IMG/VR virus record: IMGVR_UViG_3300030107_006174
Span: 1-43,963 of that record
Reading direction: 5' to 3' (one strand)
Length of the DNA stretch: 43,963 nt
Origin: a virus
Positions 4,269 to 18,378 of this stretch are shown piece after piece. The position numbers and the translations under genes are program-made. The notes beneath the pieces were generated by a model. The model saw only the letters and a list, made by a program, of their open reading frames with translations. It ran no database searches and had not been told where the DNA came from. Every line of letters starts with the position of its first letter. Position 1 is the first letter of the stretch.

Positions 4269-4902
4269 CATAGATGAAATAATTGGGGATGATGACTTTT
4301 TTGCAGAGACTACAAAACCTAAACCAAAAGCTGAAAAGACACCAAAGCCACAATGGACTCCTTTTGCTAATGGAGAATACTATGGGCATATAACTGAAGT
4401 AACAACAAGAGAAGTGAATACTCATGGTGGTAAACATAAAGCTTTAGTATATAACTTTATGATAAAAGTAGCTGAAGAGAATGAGATTAACAACTATAGT
4501 TATGATTGGGGAAATACTAACTATGATGTTAAAGGTGCAGAATATATTGGTAAAAAGATAAAATGTGTTGGTGTGTTTAGATATCTTGCTCCAAAGGAAA
4601 ATGATACTTTTGCATCTAATCCTGATGGCAATAAAGGTTATGTTATGTTTTGTGAAACAATTGGCATTCAATTACCTACTACAACAAAGGAGATTGATGG
4701 TGAGAAAGTTACTGTTAAAAGCTTACCAACAATAAAAGAAAGTGATATGGAAGGTATGCCTGTTATTGCTGTGGTTGGTGAAGGTAAAAAGTATACAAAT
4801 AAAAGTGGAAAAGAAGTTACGCCTAAAGTTGCTAAGTTTGTCAAGGCTTGGAAAAATGGTAAGAAAAAGGAGATGACTAATGAAGCAGACATCCCTTTTT
4901 AA
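4261..4902 (+). CDS. SSB-like single-stranded DNA-binding protein
   Basis: A 213-residue protein. It has an acidic N-terminus (IDEIIGDDDFF), a basic proline-rich linker (KPKPKAEKTPKPQW), a central beta-rich domain of OB-fold type (about 40-130) and an acidic-hydrophobic tip EADIPF. The tip is the hallmark of bacterial SSB proteins, where it recruits partner enzymes. The domain itself is not a close match to standard SSB, so the assignment rests on the tip, the size and the position next to the DUF1071 gene. It overlaps the upstream gene by 8 nt. Confidence 0.7.
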   Translation: MSNIDEIIGDDDFFAETTKPKPKAEKTPKPQWTPFANGEYYGHITEVTTREVNTHGGKHKALVYNFMIKVAEENEINNYSYDWGNTNYDVKGAEYIGKKIKCVGVFRYLAPKENDTFASNPDGNKGYVMFCETIGIQLPTTTKEIDGEKVTVKSLPTIKESDMEGMPVIAVVGEGKKYTNKSGKEVTPKVAKFVKAWKNGKKKEMTNEADIPF

Positions 4903-4927
4903 GAGACTTGGAATAAGGCTACTTTTA

Positions 4928-5017
4928 ATGTTAGATATACCTGTTACAACGATATCACGCTTATATAGTGTAAGTCAAGTAACTGTATATAGAGTAAAAA
5001 ACAAAAACAAAAAATAA
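4928..5017 (+). CDS. 29-residue helix-turn-helix-like micropeptide
   Basis: The ATG at 4928 has AATAAGG about 10 nt upstream, and the frame ends at TAA 5015-5017. The product, MLDIPVTTISRLYSVSQVTV followed by YRVKNKNKK, closely fits a single helix-turn-helix: ISRLYSVS as the first helix and turn, QVTVYRVK as the recognition helix, then a basic tail. Many resolvase and phage regulator HTHs use S-(Q/E)-x-TVYR. It is unusually short for a free-standing regulator and could be a remnant of a larger gene. Confidence 0.4.
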   Translation: MLDIPVTTISRLYSVSQVTVYRVKNKNKK

Positions 5018-5211
5018 TTCTCAAGAGAGCCATAGGCAACAGTATTGAGTGTTTACTATGGAATTGCATTTGATGCTGACCACAAGGTAGGGCATATTAC
5101 AAGGCTGCAAGTTGCTTGAGTCAATAACTGGTCCTGATTTAAGGAATATGTGAGACTAGAAAAAAACTGTAAAAGTCCTATGGCTAGAGAATAACGAAAG
5201 GAACAAGAAGA
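5018..5211 (+). ncRNA. structured leader or ncRNA candidate upstream of the AsnRS-like gene
   Basis: There is no gene-sized frame here. A perfect 9-bp long-range stem joins AGCCATAGG (5028-5036) to CCTATGGCT (5177-5185). The same 5' arm can instead pair locally: CCATAG (5030-5035) with CTATGG (5056-5061), so the two pairings exclude each other, as in a riboswitch or attenuator. Further helices are TCCT/AGGA (5131-5134/5141-5144), GCAT/ATGC near 5065-5076, and a possible pseudoknot CTCAAG (5020-5025) with CTTGAG (5115-5120). The AAAGGA ribosome-binding site of the downstream gene lies just after the long stem. It does not match a tRNA, tmRNA, T-box antiterminator or RNase P core by eye. Confidence 0.5.
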
Positions 5212-6051
5212 ATGAAAAACATGTATGAATATAGCTTTGCTGTCAGAAGAATGAGAGATTTCTTTCAAGGACAAAAAGGCTTTATTGAAGTACCTGCCCA
5301 ATCAAGGCAATCAATATTAGCAGCATGTGAAGACCCAGCTACAATATCACAATATATATTTAGTGGTATTAACTGGCCTTTACCTCAAACTGGTCAAATG
5401 TGGCTAGAGAGAGAACTGCTTGACAACCCTGATGTTAAAGGTGTATTTTGTGTAACTACAAGTTATCGTAATGAGCCTAATCCTGTTGAAGGTAGACATG
5501 ACAAGGTATTCCCAATGTTTGAATTTGAATCACATGGTGGAATGGAAGAAATGATGGATTTAGAAGAGCAGTTATTAGAGTTTTTAGGATTTGGTACTCA
5601 CTATACATCAATAGATTATGATGAGGCTTGTAAGAAGTATAAGGTTGATTTACTTGACTACGATGAAGAAGAAGCTTTATGTAAAGACTTTACTGATTGC
5701 ACATTCCTTAAGAACTTTCCATTAAGAACTCATCCATTTTGGAATATGAAACATGCTGGTAATGGAATCTATAATAAAGTTGATGTTATTATGCATGGTA
5801 TGGAAACAATTGGTAGTGCTGAAAGAGCAACATGTATAAAAGAAATGAGAGACCAATTCCATAACATATCTGATGGTGAATATGCTCAGCTATTATTCAA
5901 TCATTTTGGTGAAAAAAGAGTTGTGGATGAATTAGAAGAATATCTTGCGTTACCTATGTTTAAAAGATTTGGTGGTGGTATTGGAGTTACAAGAATGGTT
6001 AGTGCGATGAAAAAGCATGGAATAATGAAAGAAAAAGTAAATGCCAAATAA
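5212..6051 (+). CDS. class II aminoacyl-tRNA-synthetase-like enzyme of the AsnRS/AspRS group
   Basis: A 279-residue protein made only of the catalytic core. Motif 2 is SYRNEP (84-89; R86, E88), followed by R95-H96 and PMFEFESHG (101-109). The block FPLRTHPFWNM (169-179) and DVIMHGMETIGSAER (191-205) match the AsnRS region around the conserved GS.RE. Motif 3 is GGGIGVTRM (254-262, R261). It lacks the N-terminal OB anticodon-binding domain of AsnRS/AspRS. Free-standing cores of this type include archaeal asparagine synthetases (AS-AR), so asparagine synthesis or amino-acid transfer to something other than tRNA is as likely as tRNA charging. The AAAGGA site lies 8-10 nt before the start, after the structured leader. 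Confidence 0.75.
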   Translation: MKNMYEYSFAVRRMRDFFQGQKGFIEVPAQSRQSILAACEDPATISQYIFSGINWPLPQTGQMWLERELLDNPDVKGVFCVTTSYRNEPNPVEGRHDKVFPMFEFESHGGMEEMMDLEEQLLEFLGFGTHYTSIDYDEACKKYKVDLLDYDEEEALCKDFTDCTFLKNFPLRTHPFWNMKHAGNGIYNKVDVIMHGMETIGSAERATCIKEMRDQFHNISDGEYAQLLFNHFGEKRVVDELEEYLALPMFKRFGGGIGVTRMVSAMKKHGIMKEKVNAK

Positions 6052-6386: not shown

Positions 6387-6477
6387 AAAGTTTAATAAAC
6401 TTTTCAGGAAGAGACCTTATGGAGAATTGGGAGATAGGTCTTGTGAGTTAGGAAAGGATAAAGATGTCAAAGAGTAA
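6349..6477 (+). CDS. possible 42-residue basic protein
   Basis: This frame overlaps the previous gene by 38 nt and the next by 14 nt and fills an otherwise empty 77-nt gap. The product begins MRKKIKEVKDWTRKFNKLFR, has a KRPYGELGD centre and one cysteine. No strong ribosome-binding site precedes it. The composition looks coding, but the double overlap leaves doubt. Confidence 0.3.
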   Translation: MRKKIKEVKDWTRKFNKLFRKRPYGELGDRSCELGKDKDVKE

Positions 6478-6712
6478 TGGTTGGTGGGTAACCACAACAG
6501 ATGCAACAAGGAAGCCTGCAAGATATGATGCTGTTGCAAGTAAGGGCTTAAAAGCTGTTAAAAGAAGAAGAGAAAAACAAACATTATTTTTTTGTGAAGA
6601 GTGTAGTTATGTATGGCAACCATCAAGGTTTCCACATAGACAACAGAGATATGAAGGTTTGCCCTCATATGGACTTGAAAGAAAAGAATGTTTTAAATGT
6701 AAGGAGAAATAA
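6464..6712 (+). CDS. zinc-ribbon-like small protein
   Basis: An 82-residue protein. The N-terminal half is basic (SKGLKAVKRRREK); the C-terminal half has a C-x2-C pair (FFCEECSYVW, about 43-52) and a second C-x2-C (KECFKCKEK) at the end, a treble-clef or zinc-ribbon layout. The start follows AGGAAAGG by about 5-6 nt. The function is unknown; the role is probably nucleic-acid or protein binding. Confidence 0.6.
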   Translation: MSKSNGWWVTTTDATRKPARYDAVASKGLKAVKRRREKQTLFFCEECSYVWQPSRFPHRQQRYEGLPSYGLERKECFKCKEK

Positions 6713-6713
6713 T

Positions 6714-6914
6714 ATGGGTAGAGCAATAGATATGGAAAACGATATACATAAACTTAAAGAAAGAGTCAACAGGATTGATGCTGCTGTTTCTAAGATTATA
6801 AATGTTGTTGAAGAATTACAATCAAAATCAGTAAAGGTTACTACAAAAAATGACACTAAAAGTAAGCAACGTACAAGTAAGGCAAAGAAAGAACCAGCCA
6901 AGGAGAGTGTATAG
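6714..6914 (+). CDS. 66-residue coiled-coil protein
   Basis: AAGGAG at 6701-6706 sits 7 nt before the ATG at 6714, so this start is preferred over the longer open frame that begins at 6594 inside the previous gene. Residues 5-38 form a charged heptad-like helix (MENDIHKLKERVNRIDAAVS), followed by a Lys/Thr/Ser-rich tail. No family is recognised. Confidence 0.55.
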   Translation: MGRAIDMENDIHKLKERVNRIDAAVSKIINVVEELQSKSVKVTTKNDTKSKQRTSKAKKEPAKESV

Positions 6915-7095
6915 CTGTGAGCTTTGTGGTATAAGTTACAAGAATTATCCATACGAGATAACATTTGTTTCTGTTGTTGGCATGGAAAGTAAGACCTACA
7001 CTTGCTGTAAAAAATGTTGCTATAAAGAGGCTTATGGAACAAAAGGTATGGTTAGTAAAATGAAGGATAAGATAATTGAAGAAAAAACCGACTAA
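6850..7095 (+). CDS. zinc-finger-like protein with two cysteine pairs
   Basis: An 81-residue product with SCELCG (about 22-27) and a second cluster TCCKKCCYKE (about 50-59), typical of a four-cysteine zinc site. Its ATG at 6850 overlaps the previous gene by 65 nt. A GTG at 6908 would give a shorter protein beginning just before the first cysteine, but its AAGGAG would be too close. The start is uncertain, the coding status reasonable. Confidence 0.5.
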   Translation: MTLKVSNVQVRQRKNQPRRVYSCELCGISYKNYPYEITFVSVVGMESKTYTCCKKCCYKEAYGTKGMVSKMKDKIIEEKTD

Positions 7096-7267: not shown

Positions 7268-7614
7268 GAGGGTTATCACAAGAGCTTGGATTCATATACA
7301 TAACTTCAACAGGAGAAAAGTATGTTGATAGACAAGCTGCTATAAATCGTCAAGGACAAATTGACATGGCAACGGAGTCAAAAGAGATTATTAAAAGGAG
7401 AAAACAAATGGAAGCAGATGAAGTATTAAAGATATTAGAAGATAATGGATGGGCAGTCTTTTATAAAGCCAATCCAATACATCATCTTAGTGTACAAAAT
7501 GCTACACCAATATTCTCTGTAAATGCTGTTAGCAAAGAAGAACTTTTGAGAGCTTTTACTAGCAATCAGAAAGGTGATGATAAATGGCATTCAGAGACAG
7601 ATTCCAATCAGTAG
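7264..7614 (+). CDS. hypothetical 116-residue protein
   Basis: Starts in an ATGA overlap with the upstream stop. The N-terminal 35 residues are beta-rich with GEKYVDRQAAINRQG. The C-terminal half ADEVLKILEDNGWAVFYKAN... resembles a small alpha/beta unit. No family is recognised. An internal ATG at 7408, preceded by AAAAGGAG, could start a shorter product of about 68 residues containing only the second unit. Confidence 0.5.
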   Translation: MRGLSQELGFIYITSTGEKYVDRQAAINRQGQIDMATESKEIIKRRKQMEADEVLKILEDNGWAVFYKANPIHHLSVQNATPIFSVNAVSKEELLRAFTSNQKGDDKWHSETDSNQ

Positions 7615-7811
7615 AAGATTTCGATGATTGGTTATTAGGATTCTACGAAAGTAGGATAATTGAATATATGGATGGAATTGGAGAGTATACCGAACATAAT
7701 ACTCTTATAACTCCATCTGTAATTAAAACAACAATGAAAAGATACATAGAATTATTGGGGAAAAGATATGTTGATGATTGGAAATTGCCTAGAAGAGTTA
7801 AAGAAACTTAA
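7584..7811 (+). CDS. hypothetical 75-residue protein
   Basis: Overlaps its upstream neighbour by 31 nt and the methyltransferase by 44 nt. It is acidic and aromatic at the start (FRDRFQSVEDFDDWLLGFYE), with a helical middle and a basic end. AAAGGTGATG lies upstream of the start. No family is recognised. Confidence 0.5.
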   Translation: MAFRDRFQSVEDFDDWLLGFYESRIIEYMDGIGEYTEHNTLITPSVIKTTMKRYIELLGKRYVDDWKLPRRVKET

Positions 7812-10636: not shown

Positions 10637-11114
10637 AAAATTCGGAGCATGTGAAATTAAAGAGAAAGGAGTTTGGATGCCATTAAATAAAGATTATACA
10701 AACAAACAGTTTGATGTCAAAATAAATGGTAGGGTTAAATTCGAGAAAGACCTTGATTTTGGGAATATTGGTGAGGTATGGGCAGATAACCTATTCAACA
10801 ATGGAACAATTGAAGTCAAAACAGAGAGAGATACTGGTAAACCAACCCAATGGGTTACCACAGGGAATATCGCAATTGAAATTCGTGGTAGAGACGGAAG
10901 ACTATCAGGACTATCCATTACACAAGCGACCATATGGGTACACTTATTGTCAAAAAATGGGCATATAAAGGGAGGTTTTGTTTTTGAGGTATCACAGCTC
11001 AAGAAAAGAATAAAAGAGCTTCATTCGGCTAATCCTCTGAGAATTGTAAAAGGTGGAGATGATGATGCAACACAGATGATACTTCTACCAATTGATAAAC
11101 TCTTTAAGGATTAA
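10608..11114 (+). CDS. PD-(D/E)XK-type endonuclease candidate
   Basis: A 168-residue protein with FGNIGEVWAD (E56, D60) followed by NGTIEVKTERD (E69-x-K71, E73), the E...ExK arrangement of a PD-(D/E)XK nuclease. ITQATIWVHLL (about 104-114) follows in the usual helix position. It is the last gene of the rightward arm. Its stop overlaps by 11 nt, tail to tail, with the last gene of the leftward arm, and no terminator hairpin was seen between them. A recombination or host-DNA degradation role is plausible. Confidence 0.65.
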   Translation: MENILKTIVEKFGACEIKEKGVWMPLNKDYTNKQFDVKINGRVKFEKDLDFGNIGEVWADNLFNNGTIEVKTERDTGKPTQWVTTGNIAIEIRGRDGRLSGLSITQATIWVHLLSKNGHIKGGFVFEVSQLKKRIKELHSANPLRIVKGGDDDATQMILLPIDKLFKD

Positions 11115-14100
11115 TTTTCTTTTTAATAAGCTCAGGAATATTAAGTTCTTTAAAATATTTATTTTTATTTCTATTAAAACTTCTTATCTTAAAATTATAT
11201 TCATTTTCTAAAGCTCTAAGCTCTTTTCTTTGGCTATCATCAAGATAGTCCATAAGGAATCTCTCAGCTCTTCTTCTTGCTATCTTGTCTCTACTCATCC
11301 ATTTAGCTTTATTTGGATTTAAAAGTTTCATCTTCCTATCCATTGTTTTTTGAGCCTCATTTAGTGCTTCATCTAAATTCCTAATTCTTTTACCAAAAGT
11401 ATCATATCCCTCTTGATAATAATCATTTGCAATTGCAATAGCTGTAAGCACATATGCTTTAGCAAATTCTTTTTCTGTACCTAAATTAAATGCCCTTAAA
11501 AAATCTTTAAAATAAGGAGTCTTCTCATCTTTGGTAATTGAAATAGATGCTTTGGTATCCTTTAATTCTTTGGAGAAATCTGAGTATAATCTTCTATATC
11601 TGCTAAATTTGCCATTATAAGACTTTTCAGTTGATGCCAATTCTTTATTTTTTAATATCTTAGTTGTTTGATTGTAAGCTCCAAATGTTCCCTTTAGAAC
11701 AGAGTCAATTGATTGTCCCCATCCCCAAACGAATGCTTCTCCTTTTGCTACCTCTAAGATATTCTTAGTAAGTAAAATTCCATGATTATATATCGCAGGA
11801 CTTGTCATAAATCCTTGACTATTACTTGGATTCATCAACTCTGACATTATTCCCCCCATTTCACCTTTCCACATTGTTGTAAGGAAATTGTCCCAAGCAT
11901 CACCATTTTCTTGTGGAGGAGATTGTCCTAATATTGAATCATATACTCCCATCAATGCTTTTCCTGAAAGCCAAGCACCAGCACCCATAAGAAGAGGTCT
12001 TAAATAGCTCCCAGTTTTATGTGCAATTCTTATATTCTTTAAACTATTAGATAGAGCTGCATATGCCATACGCTTATAAAGTGTTATAGGCTTCATAAAT
12101 TGAGCTCCAAAAACTTCAGGCATAAACAAATCAACTGTTGCACCTTGCGTGTATATGTGAGCTGCTGTATCCATTTTTTGATAAATTTGATTCATACGTC
12201 TACCAACCTTAGCAGCCTCCATACCTGCTTGAATGCCTTCTGCTCCATTCATACCATTTTCTTTTAATAAATTTATCTCTCCATCTGTCAATCTATAAAA
12301 CTCTTTAAATCTTATAACTGCATTCTTATATTTGCGACCTGAAGGATTTAGAAGTAAATGCCCAACCAATCTTGTTTGCTCTGCTTTAGATGCCCTAACT
12401 GCTATATATCTGTTCATATTTTCAGTTGGTCTCATAAAGCCACCACTAAAAACAAAATCAAGAACTTTATTTACATTTTTGCCTGCTCCAAAAATAGATA
12501 CTTGATTATCAATATGTCTTAATCCCAACTCTGTTTGTCCTGTTTTTCTCATTTCCCTTCTTAAATCCGAATCAAAACTATCCACAACTCCCCTAAGGAA
12601 ATCCCTCATTCTAAATGCTCCAAGTGTTTGGTAGTTACCAACAAGAGCATTCTTTAAACCTGATGTAAAAAATGATAATTGTGTCTTTGCTATAATTGAG
12701 GCATAATCATTTAAAACTCTTTCAGACTTAGGGTAACCTATATCACTTTCATGAACTCCGAGTTGTTTTTCTACTATTTTTGCTATATAATTCTTAGCCT
12801 TAGTGCCACCTTCTACTTCGCTTAATTGTTGTATTTTTGTCTTAAAATTAGCATCAGATTTATATCCCTTAATCTTGGTATATTCAGGGAAAAATTCAAC
12901 AGTTGATGTGAATTTAGCCATACCTAATGCATATTTTCTTACAGTAGCATCATAAGATGTTTCATATACGTCAATATTCTTTTTTAATTTTTGGGAGTAA
13001 ACTTGCTCATCAATCTTTTGAAACATTCTTGGCTGTAAAAATCTTGAAGATATTGATGTTTGCATGAAATTACCTCTATCATACATATACTGCCTTGCAA
13101 TGTCTAAGGCTTCAGCCTCTACCTCAATTATTGCTTTTCTTTTAGCTTCTGCAGATAAATTTGGATTTCTTTGTTCTACTATTTTTCTTGCAATCTCATC
13201 AGCTTGTTTCTTTATAAGTTTCCTTGTTGCATCTGAATTTACAGAAAATGTTTCTTTAAAGTCATTACTAAGACCTCTATGGACATATTCTTTTGAATCA
13301 AGCCATTTTATGTTATTCTTACTTTTCCAATTCTCGTACTCAGCATCATTCATAATTTGCTTCATTGCATCTAAGAAATTATTCTTAATGAGTTTGTTAA
13401 ATTCTGAGACCTCATTCAATGCTTTACCTTCAGGACTATTCATGTTAATGCTACCATCATCATTGAATGCTTTTTTAATAAAACCTTTCTCCTCAACTGT
13501 AAGTAATCCCTTATCTTGACGCTCAATCCTTCTTTCTTTATCCATTAAGTAGAAAAAGTCTTTCACTTTATTGAATTGCTTTTCACCACCAAGATGATTA
13601 ATCATTCTTCCTTCAGCATCTACAAGGTCTCCAACATATCTTGCCTCTTGAGATTGATGGTCAAATAATCTATTCGCTATCTTATCGCCAGTTTTACCAA
13701 GTTTTCTCAATGCAGTTTCTATGGGAGCAACCCATCTATAACCCTCAAATGATAAAGTATCAAACTTTTTTAATAATTCAACATCATTCTTGTCTATCAT
13801 TTCAAAGTTAAAAGCTTCATCTATCCATGTATTATTTTTACCTGCCTTAAAGCCTAAGTCTTTCAATAAATTCTTATAGGCATTTAATGTTTTTATATTG
13901 GCTTTTGTAATATCTCCATCTTTGATACCAAATTGTTTTAATAAGAATTGCTGATTAGCATTATTGACATTTGCCTTTAATCTAAAGTTCTCTACCCCTC
14001 TATATGTTTCTATCCACTTTAAAGTATCTTTTCTTGCACGAAGTTTTTGTATATCACTATCATTAATAATATCCAATAAAGATTGGAGTTCATTAGGTTT

Positions 14101-17100
14101 AAGTTTTGATAAATTCTGCCTTGACATTTTACCTGTATCATAAGCACCTTCAATACCTGCTTGATTCCCAAAATATTTCAACAACTCATTCATGGTTCTT
14201 CTAGTATCTTTATCATCAGTTGTTTTGAATACTTTTTCAATTAATAAATCAAAGTCTTTTCTTACTCTTTTAGCTAATTCTTTTGAATCTGTACCAATTT
14301 CACGCTTCTTGACAGTTTTATCAAACTTGACTCCTGTTGTATCAAACCCTTTTTGAGTTTTTCTTGCAAGTATTCTTGCATAGTCATTGAAATTACCTGC
14401 TCCAAATATTGTTTTTACTCTTGAAACTATTTGTTTTATGAATTGATTTAATCTTGGAATCATTCCTTTTGTAAACTCAATCCTTGAAGCTTTTCCACCA
14501 ACTACATCAGCAAGAAACTCTTCCATATCACGAGTAGGATTCTTTTTCTTCCATGCTTTAAATTCTTTTGCTGTTCTTCCTAAACCTTCAGCTTTATCAA
14601 TCAACTTACTTAATGATTTATTATTTGTTTTATTGGCAAAGGCTTTGAGTCTATGAAGATTTTCATGATAGAAATCAGCAGGTTGCCATTCACCTCGTTG
14701 AAGCTTGATTATACCATCACCAAACTCACCAAGAGTATTAACATCTAAACCAGCTTCTTTTAATTGCTCTCTTGTAAGGTTATTTTTCTTTAATACTTTA
14801 TCAATAAATTGTTTTCTTTGAACCTCTACATCTTTCCCTTTAAAGACCTCTTCACCTTTACCTCTCTGAAAAGTTGTACGTTTTTTAGCATCTTTAAGAA
14901 CCTTTTGAAGACCAAGCTGTTTTATTACTTTATCTCTATTAATTATTAAGTTTTGCTTGGTTTTACCCTCTTTAGCTTTTGCAATTTTTTTATTATAGTC
15001 AACCAATTCCTTTGATGCAGATAGTTTCATGCCTGCTTCCCTCATCTGCCCTTGAAGTGTTTCACGTTGAGATGCTGTCTTTGCAGTCTTCAATCTTTCT
15101 TTTATTCTTGCTTGTTCTTGCTTCCAATATTCAACACTTGTCTCAGCACTATCAATCTCATTAATTTTGATAATTTTTTTAGGTTCTGCTTTTGCCTTAG
15201 GTGTATCAAATATACTTAATTCAGACCTTGGAACTCCTACTTTTTCTCCTTTTAATATAGCATATTCTGTGCCATCAGGAGCTTTTTCAAATCTTAATAT
15301 TTCTCTAGGTTCTATAAACCTATCAACATCACCAGATGTCCATTGAACTTTATCCCCTACTTTAACAGTAGGCTCTGCTTTTGCTTTAGTAGATAGTTTT
15401 TTAAACCCAATAAAGTCTAAATACTTTTTAGTGGGAAGAATGTCTGTACTTCGAGCACTTGTTTCTATATAATATCTAAGAAGTGTTTCAAAGTCTTTGG
15501 AGGTCATAGACTTATGGTCTTTACGCTTTTTACCAGTAGCTGTTAGGGGTGTCCCAATCTCATCTTGTTGTCTTACATATTCTATTGCTTTTCTTAATTC
15601 ATATGTAGAAAGAGAATTTTTTGTTCCTCTCTTTGTATCTAAAGGAGTATCTCCAAATATTTCATTTACAAATTCATTTAATAATTCTACATATTCCTTC
15701 TGCTGAGCCTCGCTAACTTCAGCATATCTGTCAATTAATTCACCTTTTTTCTTCTTTACACTATGTGTCAAACCCATCTCATCGACAAGTTTCATAACTT
15801 GAGGGTCAACTCCCTTACCTCTTACCCATGATGCAAAGGACTTTCTAAACATTTTTTTGCTTATTTTTCTTCCTATAGCACCTTTAAAGTCAAGCTTACT
15901 TAAAAAGTAATCAAACTCAGCACCAGTAACTACGTTACCTTCTTTTGTCCAAAATGAGAAATTATGCTTTATCCCATCTACATCAGTAAACTCAAATGAC
16001 TTCCCAAGTTTTTTATTGACATCAATTAAATCTTGCATACTTTTCTTTAACTCAGGGCTTATTGGAATCTTTCTTGTATCTCCTCCAGCTTTTGATGGGA
16101 CAAATTCTACAAAGTCTCCTTCACCTAAATTCTCTAATCTTACTCCCTTTTCAGCAGCAGTTATTTCTCCTGCCATGCTTACTAATTCTCCTGCCTGCAT
16201 TCCTTTAACATTAGAATTAATAGACTCTACTCTTCTAAGCATATAATTAAGTGAATTGGCAACAGTTTTTGGTTTCCCTGAAACAAAAGAATTAACATCA
16301 TCTGCTGTCATTGTAAGAAAGTTTTTACCTTTTTCTGCTAAATGTCTTGCAAAATTAAAATAATCATCAACCTCTGAAAGCATTGATGGTAACTCAATAA
16401 ATTTTTCTCCTCGTCCACCACCACCTCCCTTTCTATTTGGGAAAGTATTCCTAACAAGATTTTCGATAAAAGATTTACTTGTATTAAAGTTTTGTATTTG
16501 GTTTGGTTCGCCTTCAAAGACTTCATTTTCCACTTTTTGACTCACCTTATCCATCTCAATTTTTCTTTTATTCTTATCTTTCCCTGTAATACCTACACCT
16601 TCAGCAGATGTAGCGATAAATTCTTTATTGGTTAAGGTTTTTGGGACATCTACAGGCTCTACAAGAAGATTCATCAACCTTTCTCTATTGAGGGTTGGTA
16701 TTTTCTCACCTTTCATTATATCAAGTTTATCTTCAGTATACTCTTTTCTAAGGTCTTCTTGAGTTCTTCCTGTGATTCGAGAAGCTTCATCAATAATCTC
16801 AGTATCTGTCATTTCAGATAAATCTTTTCTTTCTGTTTCAACTTTAGTGGTAGGAGTATCAACAATATCAACTTCTTTAGCTTTAGTTATATTCTCCCAA
16901 TTATTTATTTTATCTTCAGCAATTTCAATGGCTTTAATTCGTGCTTTAATAATATTCTCAGTTTTGGGACTCATAATCTCAATGCCTAAAGCTTTTTGAA
17001 GTTCAGGCTGTTCAAGAGTTTCAAGGTATAACCCTTTTATGGATTTCATTGCTTTGAGGGCATTAAATGCCTCTAACTTTTCGCCAATAGTCAAGTCTGC

Positions 17101-18378
17101 TAAAGGCTTATTAAATATCTCTAAAGCTCTATCTACATCTGCAATTAATACATCTACACCTTCTTGTATTGATAAAATTTTATCAATCTCATCTTTTTGA
17201 ATCTCTGAAAATATAGAACTAGATTCAGGGTTTTCATCGATAACATTTCTTATACTTTTACTTAACTGGTCATTATTATCAATTTTAGATTTAACTGCTC
17301 TCTTTAATGAAGAGCTATATTGCTTCAAATCATTACTTGATTGCCTAAATATATCTCCTGTAGCTTTTCTTATAAGAATATCAATACTAAAATCTGTAAC
17401 AAGTTGCTTTCCTACTTGTTGCCATCCTATTGTTCCATCTTCATCTTTTGGGACACCATGAATGAAATATGGTATTGCTGTAAAAGCTGTTGCCTCTACT
17501 CCCACTTGACCAAGCACATTTAAAGTTCTTTTTGTTGCCTTTTCTAAATTTGTAGCATCTTTATTTGCTATTTCCCATTTTGCATATCTATTCCCAATAG
17601 CTTTTGATGCACCACCTGCAACAGCTCCCATTACAAATCCTTCAAGTCCTGATGCAGTTGCATCCTTTGCAACCTTCCATCCATCAATACTTCCATCTCC
17701 CTCTGGGTCAGTTACTTGTTGTGAGGCACTAGAAATCGCACCTGCAGCAGAAGAATATGTTCCAAAACCAAGACCAGTTTGCAATACTCCCTCATATACA
17801 GAAGATTTTAAAGCATCTTGTGAAATATTTTTACGAACTCCATCTGCAAATGCTTTTGTTCCCCATTTGCCAAGTTGCTTTTGTGCAATTTTAGTTCCAA
17901 CCATAGAACCACCAACAGGTAATGCAAAGAATGATATTGCATCGATTGGGTTCATCAATCCAACAGCAAATTGACCAACCTCTTCCATTAAACTTGGGTC
18001 ATAGTCTCCTATATCATATTTAAACTTTCCATTCATAATTGCATATGTCATACCTGCAAGAGATTCATTATATGCCTTCTTGAAAAATTCAGGCTGAAGA
18101 CCAAATCCACCTTCATCTGCATAAGCATCTGCAACATTTAAAAAGCTTTTTACTGTTTCTACCTTTTGAGGAGAATAATCGGCTTCTTCTTCGGTTTTCT
18201 CAGTTATAATAGGTTGCATAGCGAAGGGTTCAAATGGATTCCCTACTTCTTCTAATTCCTCTCTGTATTGTGGAAATGCACCTTTTGCATATTCATATAC
18301 GTCATAATCACTCCTATCATGGAGTCCTGGTTTATTCTCTCTAAACCATGATACAACTTTATTTGGATTTATTGCCAT
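11104..18378 (-). CDS. giant polyvalent-type virion protein with tyrosine recombinase and zincin domains
   Basis: A 2424-residue protein, last gene of the late operon. Regions seen: an N-terminal unit (1-60; SDYDVYEYAKGAFP); Gly/Ala-rich hydrophobic segments (about 135-260); helical stretches; and a glycine linker KGGGGGRGEK (about 645-654). A SAM-like core-binding region (about 660-727) precedes a tyrosine recombinase catalytic domain with R747 (GVRLENL), K763 (SKAGGDTRKIPIS), K842-x-x-R845 (KMFRKSFASW, Lys in place of His), H872 (GLTHS) and Y885 (DRYAE). An SH3-like unit (about 1005-1056) is followed by a zincin with HENLH (1238-1242) and E1286/E1287. The C-terminal helical half has a hydrophobic segment near 2130-2155. 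This follows the known polyvalent-protein plan of phages, in which one protein carrying several activities travels with the DNA. Ejection with the genome is inferred. Confidence 0.8.
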   Translation of the reverse strand: MAINPNKVVSWFRENKPGLHDRSDYDVYEYAKGAFPQYREELEEVGNPFEPFAMQPIITEKTEEEADYSPQKVETVKSFLNVADAYADEGGFGLQPEFFKKAYNESLAGMTYAIMNGKFKYDIGDYDPSLMEEVGQFAVGLMNPIDAISFFALPVGGSMVGTKIAQKQLGKWGTKAFADGVRKNISQDALKSSVYEGVLQTGLGFGTYSSAAGAISSASQQVTDPEGDGSIDGWKVAKDATASGLEGFVMGAVAGGASKAIGNRYAKWEIANKDATNLEKATKRTLNVLGQVGVEATAFTAIPYFIHGVPKDEDGTIGWQQVGKQLVTDFSIDILIRKATGDIFRQSSNDLKQYSSSLKRAVKSKIDNNDQLSKSIRNVIDENPESSSIFSEIQKDEIDKILSIQEGVDVLIADVDRALEIFNKPLADLTIGEKLEAFNALKAMKSIKGLYLETLEQPELQKALGIEIMSPKTENIIKARIKAIEIAEDKINNWENITKAKEVDIVDTPTTKVETERKDLSEMTDTEIIDEASRITGRTQEDLRKEYTEDKLDIMKGEKIPTLNRERLMNLLVEPVDVPKTLTNKEFIATSAEGVGITGKDKNKRKIEMDKVSQKVENEVFEGEPNQIQNFNTSKSFIENLVRNTFPNRKGGGGGRGEKFIELPSMLSEVDDYFNFARHLAEKGKNFLTMTADDVNSFVSGKPKTVANSLNYMLRRVESINSNVKGMQAGELVSMAGEITAAEKGVRLENLGEGDFVEFVPSKAGGDTRKIPISPELKKSMQDLIDVNKKLGKSFEFTDVDGIKHNFSFWTKEGNVVTGAEFDYFLSKLDFKGAIGRKISKKMFRKSFASWVRGKGVDPQVMKLVDEMGLTHSVKKKKGELIDRYAEVSEAQQKEYVELLNEFVNEIFGDTPLDTKRGTKNSLSTYELRKAIEYVRQQDEIGTPLTATGKKRKDHKSMTSKDFETLLRYYIETSARSTDILPTKKYLDFIGFKKLSTKAKAEPTVKVGDKVQWTSGDVDRFIEPREILRFEKAPDGTEYAILKGEKVGVPRSELSIFDTPKAKAEPKKIIKINEIDSAETSVEYWKQEQARIKERLKTAKTASQRETLQGQMREAGMKLSASKELVDYNKKIAKAKEGKTKQNLIINRDKVIKQLGLQKVLKDAKKRTTFQRGKGEEVFKGKDVEVQRKQFIDKVLKKNNLTREQLKEAGLDVNTLGEFGDGIIKLQRGEWQPADFYHENLHRLKAFANKTNNKSLSKLIDKAEGLGRTAKEFKAWKKKNPTRDMEEFLADVVGGKASRIEFTKGMIPRLNQFIKQIVSRVKTIFGAGNFNDYARILARKTQKGFDTTGVKFDKTVKKREIGTDSKELAKRVRKDFDLLIEKVFKTTDDKDTRRTMNELLKYFGNQAGIEGAYDTGKMSRQNLSKLKPNELQSLLDIINDSDIQKLRARKDTLKWIETYRGVENFRLKANVNNANQQFLLKQFGIKDGDITKANIKTLNAYKNLLKDLGFKAGKNNTWIDEAFNFEMIDKNDVELLKKFDTLSFEGYRWVAPIETALRKLGKTGDKIANRLFDHQSQEARYVGDLVDAEGRMINHLGGEKQFNKVKDFFYLMDKERRIERQDKGLLTVEEKGFIKKAFNDDGSINMNSPEGKALNEVSEFNKLIKNNFLDAMKQIMNDAEYENWKSKNNIKWLDSKEYVHRGLSNDFKETFSVNSDATRKLIKKQADEIARKIVEQRNPNLSAEAKRKAIIEVEAEALDIARQYMYDRGNFMQTSISSRFLQPRMFQKIDEQVYSQKLKKNIDVYETSYDATVRKYALGMAKFTSTVEFFPEYTKIKGYKSDANFKTKIQQLSEVEGGTKAKNYIAKIVEKQLGVHESDIGYPKSERVLNDYASIIAKTQLSFFTSGLKNALVGNYQTLGAFRMRDFLRGVVDSFDSDLRREMRKTGQTELGLRHIDNQVSIFGAGKNVNKVLDFVFSGGFMRPTENMNRYIAVRASKAEQTRLVGHLLLNPSGRKYKNAVIRFKEFYRLTDGEINLLKENGMNGAEGIQAGMEAAKVGRRMNQIYQKMDTAAHIYTQGATVDLFMPEVFGAQFMKPITLYKRMAYAALSNSLKNIRIAHKTGSYLRPLLMGAGAWLSGKALMGVYDSILGQSPPQENGDAWDNFLTTMWKGEMGGIMSELMNPSNSQGFMTSPAIYNHGILLTKNILEVAKGEAFVWGWGQSIDSVLKGTFGAYNQTTKILKNKELASTEKSYNGKFSRYRRLYSDFSKELKDTKASISITKDEKTPYFKDFLRAFNLGTEKEFAKAYVLTAIAIANDYYQEGYDTFGKRIRNLDEALNEAQKTMDRKMKLLNPNKAKWMSRDKIARRRAERFLMDYLDDSQRKELRALENEYNFKIRSFNRNKNKYFKELNIPELIKKKINP

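Follow-up and report, generated by a model that had tools for sequence, protein, structure and literature searches.

A conserved RNA with a pseudoknot core among the early replication genes of a phage group

What is carried by a 194-nt uncoded gap that a phage keeps directly ahead of a gene resembling asparaginyl-tRNA synthetase (AsnRS)? The question is raised by a virus record of 43,963 bases, here called the window, in whose forward-strand gene block the genes mostly overlap and long gaps number only two, this leader being one of them and the second longest gap of the block. An earlier note on this DNA described the leader as a switch-like RNA, in which the 5' arm of a 9-bp long-range stem could instead form a 6-bp local hairpin. 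Both stems are present, to the base, at the positions given in Table 1. Of 2000 dinucleotide shuffles of 5018-5211, 4.7% contain a perfect stem of at least 9 bp and 96% contain one of at least 6 bp, so that the 6-bp hairpin is unremarkable when taken alone. The leader as a whole, with a folding energy of -47.9 kcal/mol, is more stable than its shuffles (z = -2.7).

A gapped pattern holding only the stem, GCCATAGG...CCTATGGC, matched 106 stretches, mostly chance palindromes, and among them were four true relatives (L153, L161, L166 and L169) whose interior resembles the window RNA. The core shared by these four, GGCTRYAAGTTGCT ... AACTRYA ... AAGTCCT, was used for later scans. The family of type 1 now comprises at least 21 loci including the window, that is, at least 20 further distinct viral loci, a set that leans toward the core letters used because its collection was pattern-based. 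Identical or near-identical RNAs were merged (L169 with L153, L240 with L226, L247 with L244), and the RNA occurs once in each of the 21 records searched. A covariance model (R1) built from 15 type-1 loci, with the window left out, matched the window at 5012-5198 with E = 3.8e-14. In addition, four loci outside the model (L190, L192, L191 and L272) were recovered at about 4e-9 or better; L286 scored more weakly (4e-5), yet has a 13-bp closing helix and was counted as type 1.

The fold is supported by compensatory changes throughout its helices. When the helix segments (P0, P1, P4 and pseudoknot) of 20 members were aligned without gaps, 97.7% of the cells held standard pairs, a percentage that for P0 and P1 is partly a matter of construction, since these segments were hand-picked as paired, P4 and the pseudoknot having been located by sequence pattern only. 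Changes on both sides were seen at 19 of the 27 pairs, such cells numbering 91 as compared with 20 in shuffles, and sliding the pairing by 1-3 columns made it collapse to 28-38% paired. The long-range stem, P1, is kept by all the aligned members (20/20), with compensatory changes in both arms at 8 of its 9 pairs. Its versions read AGCCATAGG, AGCCACAGG, AGCCACAAG, AACCATAGG, AACCGCAGG, AAGCACAGG, GGTCATAGG, AGATGCAGG and GGTAATACA on the 5' side, a count of versions that the hand-picking does not affect. RNAalifold, given the raw MAFFT alignment, recovered P1 and P4 unaided. As the compensatory changes across the helices exceed both the shuffled and the slid controls, we conclude that the leader holds a conserved structured RNA.

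Table 1. Positions of the RNA, its parts and the neighbouring genes in the window
Feature	Sequence	Position (strand)	Remarks
Mini-HTH ORF, 45 aa		4880-5017 (+)	directly upstream; a neighbour, at most a candidate part of the system
Whole structured RNA, P0 to P0'		5017-5192 (+)	covariance model R1, built without the window
P0, 5' strand	ATTCTC	5017-5022 (+)	pairs with GAGAAT 5187-5192; in the MFE fold; all 6 pairs change on both sides
P1	AGCCATAGG / CCTATGGCT	5028-5036 (+) / 5177-5185 (+)	long-range stem of the earlier note; 5' strand paired in 100% of cells
Alternative hairpin	CCATAG / CTATGG	5030-5035 / 5056-5061	6 bp
P2 hairpin	CAGTATTGAGTGT / GCATTTGATGCTG	5040-5052 / 5066-5078 (+)	G-T pairs included; loop holds 5056-5061
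ACCACA motif	ACCACA	5079-5084 (+)	conserved, unpaired; A1 and A2 alignments
P4 hairpin	ACAAG-GCTGCAAGTTG-CTTGA	5099-5119 (+)	loop nearly invariant, supplying the 5' side of the pseudoknot
Insertion between P4 and pseudoknot 3' strand		5120-5164 (+)	45 nt as against the usual 4 nt
Pseudoknot, 3' strand	AACTGTA	5165-5171 (+)	pairs with T5106-C5108 and A5110-T5113 of the P4 loop, A5109 bulged
Spacer	AAAGT	5172-5176 (+)	AAGT conserved ahead of the P1 3' strand
P0, 3' strand	GAGAAT	5187-5192 (+)	MFE fold and family covariation
AsnRS-like gene, 279 aa		5212-6051 (+)	PF00152; directly downstream of the RNA in 4 lineages only
Three small protein families		6464-6712, 6850-7095, 7584-7811	paired CxxC motifs in two of them

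The molecule is closed by P0 and P1, which flank a conserved internal loop with ARAG facing A, and the first base of P0 falls inside the stop codon of the mini-HTH ORF, with which the RNA overlaps at 5017. P2 is a hairpin that in most members ends 0-2 nt from the ACCAC motif, its sequences differing, as checked sequence by sequence; a further hairpin, P3, may follow ACCAC and is absent from the window. P4, which in the window lacks its outermost pair, covaries as CAAG/CTTG, CGAG/CTCG, TAAG/CTTA, TGAG/CTCA and ACTG/CAGT around a loop with the consensus GCTRYAAGTTG. From there an A-rich linker runs to AACTRYA, and pairing of this strand with the P4 loop makes an H-type pseudoknot with 100% of cells paired. 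Its two variable pairs co-vary as AC/GT, GT/AC, GC/GC or GC/GT, and GG/CT, type 2 having GG/CC. Hairpin insertions at the linker enlarged in the window also occur in L191 and L192, with a shorter one in L190.

Of the earlier interpretation, the structured RNA, the covarying long stem and the lack of resemblance to a known class all stood; the two-state switch and, as detailed below, the dedicated AsnRS leader did not. Only in the window and L271 can the 5' arm of P1 form 6 bp with the sequence that follows it, the other members reaching 3-5 bp at this alternative pairing, which is about the chance level. No terminator-like site was found in 4700-5300, where promoter-like sites stayed at chance level. 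Since the competing hairpin is not conserved across members, its 3' arm in the window is part of the loop of P2, itself a conserved hairpin, and a terminator is missing, the switch model is unsupported; switching may nevertheless take place by some mechanism other than the competing hairpin. A short ATG frame from 5059, MELHLMLTTR, was considered as a leader peptide and rejected, as it is without an Asn codon.

With regard to known classes, none of the 4227 families of Rfam 15 was matched by four members at a permissive threshold or by eleven loci at the gathering threshold, while cmscan of the window and L153 up to E = 10 returned nothing except one chance snoRNA match, and no T-box. ARAGORN found neither a tRNA nor a tmRNA in the window. 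Literature searches, in which few subscription papers were covered, gave no description of the RNA. Outside the loci collected, exact core patterns produced 29 matches in bacterial genome contigs, none of them a member by model score, and 0 in 793 genomes of two phyla; annotated phage records searched by similarity yielded chance-level matches only, the SSB-like protein used as bait led to no relatives, and no cultured phage of the group carrying the RNA was found here.

A second type, reduced to the hairpin-pseudoknot core, is represented by at least 10 loci (L276, L291, L297, L316, L322, L333, L334, L349, L356 and L360). This core is nearly constant, ACTGGCTGGAAGTTGCAG(T/G)ATAAAAACTCCA, and forms the same pseudoknot, with GG facing CC. 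When type-2 loci were tested for a closing P1, one was found in L286 only (13 bp), and most other type-2 elements show, by eye, local flanking hairpins in place of P1. L272 and L286 bridge the two types, the closing helix being of type 1 and the core type-2-like. In L322, L334 and L349 the type-2 core follows the SSB-like gene, with a mini-HTH gene between them in L322 and L334. We therefore argue for homology of the two types, because letters are shared outside the search pattern and the genomic place is the same in these three loci. About 100-200 nt 3' of the type-2 core, L276, L291, L297 and L333 carry a near-constant segment, GGGGAGAGTCAAACAATTAACAATTAACGGGAGTTATTATCAATAGTTTGG...GCTCTCCCC, apparently an RNA hairpin.

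The RNA lies among early replication genes. In the window it comes after a Sak-type annealing protein, a likely SSB and the mini-HTH gene; the SSB is so named for its SSB-like DIPF tail, but has no Pfam match. The gene order of L226, L247 and L190 is that of the window, with the Sak-type annealing protein (PF06378), the SSB-like protein, the RNA and the same series of small genes, except for the absence of two genes, the AsnRS-like one and its downstream neighbour. Elsewhere, mini-HTH, HNH or coiled-coil-like ORFs are found upstream, and transmembrane peptides, Zn-ribbon proteins and uncharacterised genes downstream. The RNA is always codirectional with the genes, and in most members a start codon lies 9-37 nt behind P0.

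The mini-HTH ORF of the window matches Pfam HTH_7 below the cut-off, and similar ORFs precede the RNA in L226, L244, L190, L322, L334 and L286. Mini-HTH ORFs also occur about 0.4 kb downstream in L291, L297 and L333, with a recurrent size of 41-47 aa, and those beside the RNA have sub-threshold matches to HTH_7/HTH_23. Three small protein families (c0, c1 and c2) are encoded by most type-1 contigs and some type-2 contigs, and by 0 of 345 other loci. Since they are confined to RNA-bearing contigs, the RNA marks one phage group, for which these families could be markers, or else partners of the RNA; together they offer a sequence marker for an uncultured group of tailed phages. The largest ORF of the window, on the minus strand at 11104-18378, encodes 2424 aa.

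We consider it somewhat better than an even chance that the element is a structured non-coding RNA specific to this phage group, co-transcribed with its neighbours, whose pseudoknot core engages a partner early in infection, the AsnRS-like gene being exchangeable cargo. The RNA would be made within an early polycistronic transcript, given that neither terminator nor promoter signals of note surround it. It folds into a closed multi-helix body (P0, P1 and P2) and a 5-bp hairpin, the invariant loop of which reaches across the A-rich linker into the H-type pseudoknot. The pseudoknot core would be the functional site, binding a partner, most probably a phage or host protein, and the molecule, as a separate or processed RNA, would serve the early phase of infection; the AsnRS-like gene would then be carried along rather than regulated. 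In favour of this reading, neighbours on both sides are exchanged and the RNA stays, and the core persists in type 2, partly in the same place. As the place is kept while the surrounding genes change, the RNA probably has its own job and is not a switch for the AsnRS gene. The constant codirection and the nearby start codon, as a cis-element would show, count against it, as does the AsnRS-like gene following the RNA in four lineages, oftener than expected of a random gene.

More tentatively, and at less than even chances, such a non-coding RNA could represent a new functional class of phage RNA, acting as a small RNP scaffold, decoy or ribozyme early in infection, with a core of about 33 nt kept while outer helices and neighbours are exchanged. 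It resembles the orphan phage and metagenome RNA motifs of Rfam in having a covariation-supported fold, an occurrence in phages and no assigned function, and departs from them in the novelty of its core and architecture. In L196, L245 and L271 the RNA is immediately preceded by the end of a small HNH gene, which recalls HEARO/OMEGA RNAs. No constant HNH or IscB-type nuclease adjoins the RNA, however, most members, the window included, being without an HNH gene; size and fold also differ, and Rfam gave no match. The RNA adds to the families in Rfam 15 a well-supported one, whose fold is defined by covariation ahead of experiment. The constancy of the pseudoknot core and of its early locus marks a function of the RNA that is always retained in these phages, and knowing the partner could uncover a step in host takeover or gene control that is based on RNA.

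The main rival to a non-coding RNA is a cis-regulatory element, riboswitch-like or protein-operated, acting on translation or stability of whichever early operon follows; we regard it as rather unlikely. On this view, occupation of the A-rich pseudoknot would make P1 and P0 more stable, and both of these helices end a short distance ahead of a ribosome-binding site. The unvarying codirection, the start codon and plausible ribosome-binding site 9-37 nt behind P0 in most members, the lack of a terminator between RNA and gene, and the aptamer-like combination of a conserved core with variable outer helices are all consistent with it. However, the first downstream genes are unrelated (AsnRS-like, transmembrane peptides, Zn-ribbon proteins and others), there is one copy per phage, neither an alternative pairing nor a terminator is conserved, and no bacterial occurrence was found by the core patterns, which is unusual for a metabolite sensor. 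In the H-type pseudoknot riboswitches preQ1-I and SAM-II, the loop of a short hairpin pairs with a downstream strand, and the A-rich linker can occupy the minor groove. The phage RNA shares this topology, P4 and the loop-tail pairing showing joint changes, whereas its consensus letters, its 7-bp bulged pseudoknot and its enclosure by P0, P1 and P2 are different, in addition to the missing Rfam match at a permissive threshold, the varied downstream genes and the single copy per phage.

A closer tie to the AsnRS-like enzyme, with the RNA as its partner, substrate or dedicated leader as the earlier note had proposed, appears improbable. The ORF at 5212-6051 encodes a class II synthetase catalytic domain of the Asp/Lys/Asn group, its best solved relatives being AsnRS; the N-terminal anticodon-binding domain is absent, and a motif 2-like YRNE and a motif 3-like GGGIGVTRM are visible. 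The gene comes immediately after the RNA in four lineages (the window, L153/L169, L250 and L271) and at a distance of 1.6 kb in L245, and in a tree of relatives the enzymes of the RNA-bearing phages group together, adjoining L001-L006, which have no RNA nearby. Most RNA loci, however, are without the gene beside the RNA and are followed by other genes, including the nearest syntenic relatives L226, L247 and L190, which keep the RNA in the same place, and L238 as opposed to L250, although many contigs are fragments, so that absence from a contig is not absence from the phage. Conversely, L001-L007, AsnRS relatives at 72-81% identity, have no RNA nearby; nhmmer with the window RNA found nothing similar among viral AsnRS relatives (80 fetched), and a covariance-model search of a subset of these relatives gave no member. 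This distribution speaks against a dedicated leader and also weakens the idea of a substrate or partner, which retains some support because the gene adjoins the RNA in four lineages, and for which a tRNA-like fold is missing. The position just ahead of a synthetase-like gene recalls T-box and other aminoacyl-tRNA synthetase leaders, but no T-box family of Rfam was matched, terminator, conserved antiterminator pairing and Asn-rich leader peptide are lacking, and the synthetase gene is usually absent behind the RNA. The AsnRS neighbourhood is thus recurrent in this phage group, not defining. Least probable is a DNA-level signal (an origin, recombination or processing site) folding as single-stranded DNA, which would suit a place among replication and recombination genes with neighbours exchanged on both sides and a P1 with 0 G-T pairs in 180 cells, but the G-U pairs seen in 6 of the 20 pseudoknots and in several stems of P2 would be expected from RNA, not from DNA, and the direction in which the element faces the genes does not vary.

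AsnRS-like genes have a neighbour of another kind elsewhere. A tRNA called as tRNA-Asn (GTT), with a long variable arm like that of tRNA-Leu/Ser, comes after the gene in several viral contigs and in the cyanophages P-SSM2 and P-SSM7. A diverged tRNA-Asn of this sort was considered for the window and rejected, since ARAGORN found no tRNA there. The odd tRNAs map to L081 4789-4876, L082 4781-4867, L008 1924-2020, L009 1806-1892, L010 5824-5916, L012 6193-6288, L013 1629-1715, L014 6131-6215 and L006 6881-6969, within about 0.5 kb of the AsnRS-like gene (1 kb in L006); that of L008 is of the same sequence type, its anticodon not being called by ARAGORN. The pairing of a synthetase-like gene with an odd tRNA merits a separate study.
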